Shown: piece after piece, positions 1 to 46,776 of the stretch
Numbering within the stretch: position 1 is the first letter of the stretch
How the letters are laid out: each line of letters begins with the position of its first letter
DNA from: a virus
Direction: 5' to 3' (one strand)
DNA length: 46,776 nucleotides
Virus record (IMG/VR): IMGVR_UViG_3300044946_000016
Span: 1-46,776 of that record
Translations under genes and position numbers: made by a program
Notes under the pieces: model-generated
What the model was told of the DNA's origin: nothing
The model's input: the letters and a program-made list of their open reading frames with translations, nothing else
The model's database searches: none

Positions 1-96
1 GGTCGGGGTCGAGGTCGAGGTCGGGGTCGGGGTCGTGGTCGAGGTCGGGGTCGGGGTCGTGGTCGAGGTCGAGGTCGTGGTCGTGGTCGAGGTCGT
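1..96 (+). repeat. GGTCGN hexanucleotide tract, left end (16 units)
   Basis: Sixteen perfect tandem units of GGTCGN. Only the sixth base varies and it is A, G or T, never C. Bases 1-89 are identical to 46554-46642 in the right-end tract, in the same orientation. The tract stops at AAAATG, where the 47-residue gene begins. Direct orientation at both ends fits a circular or permuted molecule opened inside the repeat, not inverted telomere-like ends. Confidence 0.95.
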
Positions 97-98
97 AA
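1..98 (+). CDS. Ser-X dipeptide repeat protein, 3' end (continues from 46454)
   Basis: In the frame whose codons begin at base 3, the tract reads Ser(TCG)-X(NGG), with X = Gly, Arg or Trp, and ends at a TAA at 96-98. The same unit phase at the right end is in frame with an ATG at 46454, so joining the ends on unit phase gives one protein of at least about 137 residues. The next gene starts two bases after this stop. This is the terminal part only; whether it is translated is inferred from the start/stop overlap at 46454 and the clean stop here. Arg-Gly (GGT-CGN) is the competing frame. Confidence 0.55.
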   Translation, partial: SGSRSRSGSGSWSRSGSGSWSRSRSWSWSRS

Positions 99-99
99 A

Positions 100-243
100 A
101 TGAAAAAACGCGCAAAGAAAAAGATCGTCTCCTTTAAGCCGGACAATGACATCTGGCCAAAGTTGCGCAAAGAGAAAAGAATGGAACGATCATTCACAAT
201 TAATACCGCGCTGAGAAAGTATTATGGTAAGACCTGCAATTGA
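100..243 (+). CDS. Small ribbon-helix-helix-like DNA-binding protein (47 aa)
   Basis: The product is very basic at its N-terminus (MKKRAKKK) and its second half (about residues 29-43, ERSFTINTALRKYY) resembles the helix of Arc/CopG/ribbon-helix-helix proteins that bind DNA as dimers. It begins two bases after the TAA of the repeat protein and overlaps the next gene by 20 bases. The frame stays open upstream through the whole hexamer tract, where it would read Gly-Arg repeats, so an N-terminally extended form is possible. I chose ATG 100 as the first ATG after the repeat. A role as regulator is inference; it could bind the palindromes found elsewhere in the genome. Confidence 0.55.
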   Translation: MKKRAKKKIVSFKPDNDIWPKLRKEKRMERSFTINTALRKYYGKTCN

Positions 244-44972: not shown

Positions 44973-46115
44973 ATGATGCCAAAAAAACCTTATCGCATTC
45001 CAGATACGGCATGGATAATGTCAAGGCCGTGGAATGGACTCAAGGTTGTGTCCACATTCTCAGGCTGCGGCGGCTCATGCCTGGGGTATCGTTGGGCAGG
45101 CTACAAGGTTGTATGGGCAAATGAATTTCTTCCAGCAGCGCAGGAATCCTACAAGGCCAATTTCAAAGACACTTATCTTGATTGCCGGAATATTCGCAAC
45201 GTCACGGCAATGTCTATTCTTTTGCGCACAGGACTCAAGCAGGGCGAATTGGGTTTGTTTGATGGCTCGCCGCCATGTCAAGCGTTTTCCATGGCCGGCA
45301 AACGCGAGAAAGGTTGGGGCAAGGAAAAGACCTACGAGCACGGCGTCAAGCAATGTAATGAAAAGATGTTTGATGAATACATTCGATTGCTTGATGGATT
45401 GCAACCGCGAGTGTTCATCGCGGAGAACGTCAAGGGACTGACGATGGGCGCGGCGGCAAAGATGATGGGTAGTTTTCAGGATGATATGTTCGACAGTCAG
45501 GATGATACCATTTTGCGCAAGTTAATGGCATGTGGATATTTGGTCAGGCATCGGATTCTTAACGCTGCTCATTATGGGGTGCCGCAAAATCGCGTGCGAA
45601 TTATTTTTCAGGGAGTGCGCAGGGATTTGAATTGCGATCCGGTTTGGCCAAAGGCGTTGCCGCACATTTACAGTGTCCGGGATGCGTTGCCGCACATTTA
45701 CAGTGTCGAATGTAAATTGGATAATACAAATCCTGATATTGACAAGTCGATGTGTTCGATTCTGAAAGAGGGCGGAAAGAGTCAAATACTGAAAGTCAGG
45801 CAGCTTCCCAAGTCACGCATTGAACGCATGGAATCAGGACATGATTTAGCTCCTGCTGATTTGCAGAATCAAGATGGCCCATCGCCGACGATAACCTGTG
45901 GCAGTCCCGGCAATGATGTTTCGATTGGAACACGCAAGCTGACCATCGAAGAACTTAAACGTCTTGGTGGATTTCCGGATGACTTTATCTTGACTGGGAG
46001 TTATGCGCAGCAATGGGCGCGAATCGGCAATTCCGTTGCGCCGCCGTTCATGCGGGCTATCGCGGCAGAAATCGCGGAAAAGATTCTTCTTGCAAAAGGT
46101 AATACCTTTTGCTAG
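44973..46115 (+). CDS. C5 cytosine DNA methyltransferase
   Basis: Motif I FSGCGGSCLG (29-38), catalytic PPCQ (Cys102), ENV (about 154-156), QNRVRIIF and the C-terminal GNSVAPPF are all present, in the order of Dcm-type enzymes. It would methylate cytosine in phage DNA and perhaps protect from restriction. The coding sequence contains a 30-bp in-frame tandem duplication (ALPHIYSV repeated, 45654-45713), and its last codons contain the palindrome of the next operator (encoding LAKGNTFC). ATG 44976 is an alternative start. Confidence 0.9.
   Translation: MMPKKPYRIPDTAWIMSRPWNGLKVVSTFSGCGGSCLGYRWAGYKVVWANEFLPAAQESYKANFKDTYLDCRNIRNVTAMSILLRTGLKQGELGLFDGSPPCQAFSMAGKREKGWGKEKTYEHGVKQCNEKMFDEYIRLLDGLQPRVFIAENVKGLTMGAAAKMMGSFQDDMFDSQDDTILRKLMACGYLVRHRILNAAHYGVPQNRVRIIFQGVRRDLNCDPVWPKALPHIYSVRDALPHIYSVECKLDNTNPDIDKSMCSILKEGGKSQILKVRQLPKSRIERMESGHDLAPADLQNQDGPSPTITCGSPGNDVSIGTRKLTIEELKRLGGFPDDFILTGSYAQQWARIGNSVAPPFMRAIAAEIAEKILLAKGNTFC
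46092..46112 (+). promoter_or_regulatory. Palindromic operator inside the methyltransferase 3' end
   Basis: A perfect 21-bp palindrome with core AAAAGGTA-A-TACCTTTT lies in the last codons of the methyltransferase gene and 12 bases before ATG 46125. No good -35 box is visible at the expected spacing, so an operator role is clearer than a promoter role. The downstream genes cross the contig ends. Confidence 0.6.
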
Positions 46116-46124
46116 TCTCGAAAC

Positions 46125-46457
46125 ATGAACATTGATTTACTCACAATTGGCGAGCTACGCGAAATCAATGCGTTGCTCGGAAAACAAACTCAAAACGATC
46201 AACCCTACAAAATTGGCGCGAACTACTTTTTGCGCACAGTCACGCATCATCATACCGGGCGGCTAGTTCAAGTCACGCAGCAGGAGCTTGTGTTAGAGGA
46301 TGCGGCCTGGATTGCCGAAGATGGTAAGTTTTCGGACGCCTTGAAAAAGTGCGAGTTCTCCGAAGTTGAAATGTTTCCAAAGGGCCGCGTGATCGTCGGG
46401 CGTGCGGCAATTATCGACGCGACTGAATTGACCAACATTCCAACGTCAACAAAATGA
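46125..46457 (+). CDS. Conserved phage protein beside the dipeptide-repeat gene (110 aa)
   Basis: The pattern IGANYFLRTVTHHHTGRLVQVTQQELVLEDAAWIA ... DALKKCEFSEVEMFP is a familiar conserved phage protein of unknown function. From memory, related phages often have a Gly/Ser/Tyr-type dipeptide-repeat protein just downstream, which fits the repeat gene starting at 46454 in an ATGA overlap here. It is probably a beta-rich small protein. Its operator-like palindrome lies just upstream. Confidence 0.6.
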   Translation: MNIDLLTIGELREINALLGKQTQNDQPYKIGANYFLRTVTHHHTGRLVQVTQQELVLEDAAWIAEDGKFSDALKKCEFSEVEMFPKGRVIVGRAAIIDATELTNIPTSTK

Positions 46458-46776
46458 ACGCTTCAATTTGCGCAAGAGGTTGGCTTGAGTCGTGGTCGGG
46501 GTCGTGGTCGTGGTCGTGGTCGAGGTCGAGGTCGTGGTCGTGGTCGTGGTCGAGGTCGGGGTCGAGGTCGAGGTCGGGGTCGGGGTCGTGGTCGAGGTCG
46601 GGGTCGGGGTCGTGGTCGAGGTCGAGGTCGTGGTCGTGGTCGTGGTCGAGGTCGTGGTCGTGGTCGTGGTCGAGGTCGAGGTCGTGGTCGTGGTCGTGGT
46701 CGAGGTCGGGGTCGAGGTCGAGGTCGTGGTCGTGGTCGAGGTCGAGGTCGTGGTCGTGGTCGTGGTCGAGGTCGGG
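46454..46776 (+). CDS. Ser-X dipeptide repeat protein, 5' part (continues at 1-98)
   Basis: ATG 46454 overlaps the stop of the preceding gene (ATGA). The first residues are MNASICARGWLES and then every second residue is Ser (TCG) with X = Trp, Gly or Arg (NGG), through to the end of the window. The frame is open without stop for 107 codons and, joined on unit phase, would continue to the TAA at 96-98. The encoded Trp/Arg/Gly order varies along the tract. Function unknown. Confidence 0.6.
   Translation, partial: MNASICARGWLESWSGSWSWSWSRSRSWSWSWSRSGSRSRSGSGSWSRSGSGSWSRSRSWSWSWSRSWSWSWSRSRSWSWSWSRSGSRSRSWSWSRSRSWSWSWSRS
46488..46775 (+). repeat. GGTCGN hexanucleotide tract, right end (48 units)
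   Basis: Forty-eight tandem units with only the sixth base variable (A, G or T, never C); the first unit begins with A instead of G. Longer words recur, such as TTTA and TTTAG in the variable position, which shows duplication of groups of units. Bases 46554-46642 are identical to 1-89, and the last seven bases equal the first seven of the window. Confidence 0.95.

Follow-up and report, generated by a model that had tools for sequence, protein, structure and literature searches.

Organization of the locus

The window, meaning the whole stretch of DNA analyzed here, is a virus record from IMG/VR, linear and 46,776 bases long, and each of its ends is occupied by tandem hexamers of the form GGTCGN. 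The right end holds 47 exact units (46494-46775) directly preceded by one variant unit, AGTCGT (46488-46493), and the left end holds 16 exact units (1-96), with TRF scores for the window arrays of 404-453 and 127-169. Summed over both ends this amounts to 63 exact GGTCGN units plus one AGTCGT, nearly the 64 GGTCGN units counted in an earlier sequence-only reading. The sixth base of the GGTCGN units is T in 27, A in 23, G in 13, and C in none, so that the further claim of that reading, that this base is always A, G or T, holds. The features of the locus, each with its basis in parentheses, are:

46125..46457, + strand: partner gene, 110 aa, predicted Sm/LSm-fold small beta barrel, subfamily A (AF2 model, structural matches, linkage)
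46454..46776, + strand: repeat gene, 5' part, running off the contig end (ATG at 46454; ATGA overlap with the partner stop)
46454..46489, + strand: leader MNASICARGWLE, of the conserved type MNAAIxRTGFDxS (leaders of relatives)
46488..46775, + strand: array of one AGTCGT and 47 GGTCGN, read TCG-NGG, or Ser-X (unit count, TRF)
1..98, + strand: repeat gene, 3' part, 16 GGTCGN units and stop TAA at 96-98 (Ser-X stop position in relatives)
100..243, + strand: next gene, 47-aa basic protein MKKRAKKKIVSFKPDNDIWPKLRKEKRMERSFTINTALRKYYGKTCN (starts one base past the repeat gene stop)

The start codon of the repeat gene overlaps the stop codon of the gene at 46125-46457, hereafter the partner, in the sequence ATGA at 46454-46457. 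The two window ends share an exact overlap of just 7 bases (46770-46776 is identical to 1-7). A straight end-to-end join is one base out of phase owing to an extra G at 46776, and the 7-base overlap restores the unit phase and gives a 137-codon reading. The two ends are probably one GGTCGN array; the join is plausible but has not been shown, and the true number of units remains undetermined. The assembler likely split the gene because the array is repetitive. Units 1-14 of the left array match units 11-24 of the right one exactly, and the latter contains 7 repeated 8-unit words compared with 0.2 in shuffles, which indicates that blocks of units have been copied. A possible alternative to block duplication for the recurring units is that assembly ran into the array from each side.

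Reading frame of the array

No stop codon interrupts GGTCGN repeats in any of the six frames, and openness by itself is no evidence for one of them. Relatives were therefore used: a frame-blind DNA pattern scan returned at least 120 stretches, and 121 distinct tracts were compared. An ATG lies no more than 25 codons upstream in the Ser-X frame of 80 of the 121 tracts, in the Gly-Arg frame of 21, and in the Val-X frame of 12; for stop codons no more than 3 codons from the end of the tract, the corresponding figures are 60/106, 6/99, and 7/100 (Fisher p 1e-14 and 6e-16, Ser-X versus Gly-Arg frame). Start and stop codons border the Ser-X frame with a frequency 4-10 times that seen for either of the other two.

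The same frame is used in an annotated homologue. In the complete phage record MW202573.1 the partner homologue UOF78857.1 overlaps the annotated CDS UOF78858.1 by ATGA; the latter reads MNAAIIRAGLDASWSWSWSWSRSRSWSWSGSRSGSRSRSGSGS, and its opening is given as MNAAIIRAGLDASWSWSWSWSRS. In a further relative, L009, tandem ORFs, MNACVAFAGWSWSWS...SRSP, come after a homologue of the partner, and the first of them shares an ATGA overlap with the next. In record MW202825.1 the arrangement recurs with a partner of the second subfamily and a tandem pair of repeat genes, in a stretch that is unannotated there. It is thus very likely, taking the frame and the two-gene module jointly, that the array encodes Ser-(Trp/Arg/Gly) from the ATG at 46454 to the TAA at 96-98. 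The sequence-only reading had proposed this frame, with the ATGA-overlapped start and the same stop, and had named conservation of a different frame in relatives as a refutation; relatives conserve the Ser-X frame only, so that the proposal survives this test and is borne out.

A near-obligate two-gene module

Neighbor clustering took in 143 loci bearing the leader. A homologue of the partner is present in 78 of these, immediately upstream in nearly all and on the same strand in every case, and the next most frequent neighbor cluster occurs in 8 of the 143. A partner-only query retrieved 393 relatives on viral contigs, of which the 79 best loci, all subfamily A, were examined. The repeat gene follows the partner in 75 of them; the four misses comprise two contigs that end within 41 bp, the contracted repeat of L309, which holds only a short repeat gene (MNAAVTRAGFDNPRSRSWSY), and L331, which has no repeat. 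Under the same rule, other ORFs in the subfamily A loci are followed by a repeat gene in 23 of 436 cases (p 5e-64). For subfamily B, retrieved with a single member as the query, the repeat gene follows in 59 of 66 loci, and 3 of the 7 misses are contig ends. The two subfamilies are homologous (hhalign probability 97, E 8e-11) and are accompanied by different leaders, MNAAIxRTGFDxS-like for A and MRGLKQKYRS-like for B. The ATGA (-4) overlap is found in 42 of 67 distinct subfamily A relatives and also in MW202573.1.

The partner and the repeat gene thus form a near-obligate, co-oriented, mostly overlapping pair, and the module is found across hundreds of phage contigs. A long tract is not strictly essential, since some loci have a partner with only a short repeat gene (L309) or with none detected (L331 and L396, among others). 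Sequences in these sets share ancestry, and tract counts are accordingly not counts of independent events.

Like the window, 17 of the 79 partner-bearing viral contigs (L253-L331) end no more than 300 bp past the partner gene. The array systematically breaks short-read assemblies, with the consequence that genes are cut and phages are called incomplete.

Several repeat-gene copies, each with the same leader, lie behind one partner in L009 (6263-7696); since the copies all carry this leader, the cassette itself has been amplified. Several repeat genes or tracts per phage are likewise present in L136, L167, L197, L207, and L240.

Predicted fold of the partner

Single-chain AF2 models of the partner show, with good confidence, a small beta barrel in both subfamilies (pLDDT of 90.6 for subfamily A and 86.9 for subfamily B) and consist of an N-terminal helix and five to six strands. 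All 50 of the listed PDB structural matches for A, and 49 of 50 for B, are Sm/LSm proteins, with modest Foldseek E-values (best 1.7e-3 for A and 4e-4 for B). Searches of the profile libraries, and of the PDB by sequence, gave only chance-level matches for the partner, and no LSM or Hfq profile is among its Pfam or NCBIfam matches. Since the Sm1 and Sm2 sequence motifs are not recognized by profiles, the partner is called Sm-like in fold only: both subfamilies are predicted by the model to have this fold, neither belongs to the superfamily by sequence, and ring formation or RNA binding would rest on analogy alone. Sm-fold proteins need not bind RNA.

The likeness to the Sm/LSm superfamily (SmAP, LSm1-8, Hfq) therefore lies in the predicted fold of both partner subfamilies, whereas the phage partner lacks a detectable Sm sequence profile, is tied to a separate repeat gene, and in subfamily A has a small helix between strands. 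The best structural match among viral predicted structures is to the DUF6948 phage proteins, but with approximately 19% identity over the match and no sequence-profile match to the partner.

Many subfamily A members contain VIVGRGSI, whose GRG is reminiscent of Sm2 by eye only. The NCBIfam family MM0924 matches 12 of 33 subfamily B members weakly (best E 8.5e-4), perhaps a lead to archaeal relatives.

Composition and codon usage of the repeat

In the GGTCG relatives five of the six bases hardly vary within tracts, including the silent third base of the Ser codon. A second pattern scan, for versions with TCA, TCC or TCT, likewise yielded at least 120 stretches, and these carry the same leaders. 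In the subfamily A set retrieved with the partner only, and hence blind to the repeat, Ser is encoded by TCG 911 times, TCA 316, AGC 316, and TCT 50, with a uniformity of 95.6% within a gene. Silent sites are homogenized inside each tract and vary from phage to phage, whereas all share the amino-acid pattern. The five-base invariance consequently reflects the search pattern and within-tract homogenization rather than a DNA motif.

The residue X is Gly, Arg, and Trp in fractions of.353,.322, and.252 in the repeat-blind subfamily A set and of.364,.266, and.279 in subfamily B, or overall approximately 35% Gly, 30% Arg, and 27% Trp. In the pattern-based set GC content bears no relation to the Trp, Arg, and Gly fractions but does go with the choice of Arg codon, which swings from AGG to CGG. 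The bases used at the first position of X in 223 tracts form the sets C/G/T (116), A/G/T (85), ACGT (9), A/C/T (2), and A/C/G (0); all three of Trp, Arg, and Gly are kept in 210 of the 223, with Arg written as AGG or CGG and rarely both. C is absent from the sixth base in the window because this phage writes Arg as AGG, an instance of the A/G/T case. The order of X is near random, like neighbors being slightly avoided (runs sign test p 0.002), and the two-residue period is strict in nearly all repeat genes, X being more degenerate at some loci (K, Q, E, L, A).

The constant W/R/G composition across relatives and the conserved leader ahead of the tract are shown by these comparisons. That selection acts on the three-residue mixture and not on its order is likely, since sets with one codon each for Trp, Gly, and Arg are predicted by selection for such a mixture and not by neutral expansion from random founders.

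A hypermutable sixth base was also considered and is ruled out by the finding that A and C seldom occur together in one tract.

Turnover of tract units

The pairs L305/L317 and L259/L261 are 99.93% identical over 1,500 bp upstream, and their tracts differ by in-frame unit changes, showing in-frame unit turnover between near-identical phages. The W/R/G variation arises by this turnover. It does not meet the criteria for the target of a diversity-generating retroelement, namely a reverse transcriptase and a template repeat nearby and variation at adenines; the commonest bases at the variable position are G and T and, the partner aside, each neighbor family is confined to 8 or fewer of the 143 leader-bearing loci.

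Further claims of the sequence-only reading can be assessed at this point. Its expectation that the protein differs between close relatives holds, given different tracts behind near-identical upstream DNA. Of the proposed hypervariability by slippage or unequal recombination of unit blocks, the turnover of units and blocks is confirmed from relatives, and slippage and recombination remain inferred. The association with the gene at 46125 is upheld by relatives, but the assertion that known phages often carry such proteins beside this gene finds no support: three partner queries matched only two of the 50,697 INPHARED records, both from one spring-water metagenome, and no paper on them was found. 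That reading missed the near-obligate pairing of the neighbor with the repeat gene and its predicted Sm fold, the presence of the family on hundreds of phage contigs, and the fact that the missing C means Arg is AGG.

Comparison with known systems

In the literature searched, which left most subscription journals and all preprints outside its scope, neither the repeat nor the gene pair is described, and no cultured phage describing the module was found. The PHROGs and PADLOC profiles gave no match, with the reservation that the HMMER bias correction could hide matches to repeat proteins. A RiPP precursor would be expected to cluster with a modifying enzyme or transporter gene, and this criterion is unmet, non-partner neighbor families occurring in at most 8 of the 143 loci.

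In the P-body proteins LSm14/Scd6 and Edc3 an LSm fold is likewise paired with an Arg/Gly low-complexity chain. Scd6 self-associates via its RGG motif (PMC6693564); it also has an LSm domain. The phage pair differs in comprising two overlapping genes, with Ser at every second position and Trp as the aromatic residue, and there is no evidence of common descent. SR proteins and RS domains are partly comparable to the repeat protein in their Ser-Arg dipeptide runs, but only about one-third of the phage dipeptides are Ser-Arg, the remainder being Ser-Gly and Ser-Trp, and the phage system comes from viruses of prokaryotes and has no RNA-recognition domain in the same chain. The Gly-(Tyr/Asp/Ser) dipeptide-repeat ORFs of L138, L145, L184, and L188, from the TCH scan, similarly alternate a small residue with an aromatic, charged or small one and differ in their codons. 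The components thus resemble known things (the Sm fold and RG/RS low-complexity chains), and the two-gene system lies outside every family tested.

Proposed role of the pair

The best explanation overall, preferred by a modest margin, is a conserved two-gene phage module consisting of a Sm-like protein and a mixed Ser-X polymer. The repeat protein comprises a short conserved leader and (Ser-X)n with X roughly evenly Gly, Arg, and Trp, and is inferred to form a disordered "stickers and spacers" chain in which Trp and Arg would serve as stickers and Ser and Gly as spacers. This polymer may associate with itself and with nucleic acid, and may act jointly with the co-translated Sm-like protein, whether by serving as its ligand or because the two make up the halves of an RNA-protein assembly, a principle comparable to that of eukaryotic LSm proteins carrying RGG tails. 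The tract would grow, shrink, and homogenize as 6-bp units and blocks slip or recombine unequally, and selection would remove tracts losing Trp, Arg or Gly, with the three-letter mixture persisting. The polymer or condensate role is the less secure part and falls slightly short of being probable: self-association and nucleic-acid binding are inferred, with no experiment and no model of the repeat protein.

A bolder reading, against which the balance tips slightly, is that of a widespread phage ribonucleoprotein or condensate module in which a Sm-fold protein acts with a separately encoded, Ser-spaced W/R/G polymer. In this reading the composition of the polymer and not its sequence is selected, several Ser codons being used and the mixture remaining despite constant homogenization. 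If true, Sm-fold proteins would join the gene set of many uncultured phages. The module also constitutes a natural experiment on low-complexity proteins, in which hundreds of phage contigs retain one three-residue mixture as unit order, unit number, and codons change, and the role of composition versus sequence in disordered proteins could be tested in bacteria with a two-gene cassette.

Alternative explanations

The alternative given most weight, and still possible, is an effector/controller pair in which the repeat protein would be a host-directed inhibitor, sticking for instance to ribosomes, RNA or the membrane, that the partner would neutralize or deliver; toxicity would be inferred from gene order and overlap alone. 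Chains rich in Arg and Trp commonly act on membranes or RNA. The gene order and ATGA overlap (42/67 at -4) are as in many toxin-antitoxin pairs, and rapid turnover fits a role in conflict. However, there is no toxin or antitoxin family match, several repeat genes stand behind one partner in L009, and the composition is constant across very different phages.

A neutral microsatellite, in which a hexamer grew at a small gene's end and the phage simply tolerates it, is unlikely. Homogenization and block duplication are evident and a contracted tract survives in L309, as this explanation would have it. Nevertheless, neutral founders should yield sets containing A and C as often as sets containing T and G, and the observed numbers are 11 and 216 of 223; moreover, the tract is retained near-obligately behind the partner, in two subfamilies and on four Ser-codon backgrounds, with a composition independent of GC.

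Similarly unlikely is an ordered silk-like or cross-beta fibre with Ser on one strand face and Trp/Arg/Gly on the other. The strict two-residue period supports it, but the high Gly/Arg content and the unordered X disfavor regular packing, without a model having been made.

A (GR)n protein starting at TTG 46485 and fused to the basic protein ending at 243, with the variable base silent, is all but excluded. This frame is open, in frame with 100-243, and preceded by the Shine-Dalgarno-like AAGAGG; however, the starts and stops of relatives flank the Ser-X frame, the annotated homologue in MW202573.1 uses that frame, and no Gly-Arg is encoded in relatives whose Ser codons are AGC, TCA or TCT. The Gly-Arg frame, with N silent and fused to the basic protein, had been the first idea and was ruled out by these relatives.

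Equally close to exclusion is a DNA element in which GGTCG would be a binding, recombination or origin motif with one free base and coding would be incidental, an idea favored by five of the six bases barely changing in the window tract and the GGTCG relatives but contradicted by the other hexamers (AGC, TCA, and TCT versions) in tracts sharing leaders and partner. The least-variable silent Ser base had suggested such a motif, or two overlapping constrained frames, and both candidates were ruled out by the versions with other codons.

Host leads and neighboring genes

The 649-kb bacterial contig L252 (CAMFLR010000004.1, from an Isosphaeraceae metagenome-assembled genome) carries the partner and MNAAILRTGFDRSWSRSGS..., and is possibly a provirus and a host lead. 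Because only 1 of 294 Planctomycetes genomes carries the module, the host is not established. No deposited phage has a terminase closely related to that of the window.

The basic protein at 100-243, which has no family match in the libraries and is ribbon-helix-helix-like by eye, is probably not part of the module. Just downstream of the module lies a Sak4-like annealing ATPase (432-1256), for which a scan found no relatives, and just upstream lies a C5-cytosine DNA methyltransferase (44973-46115).
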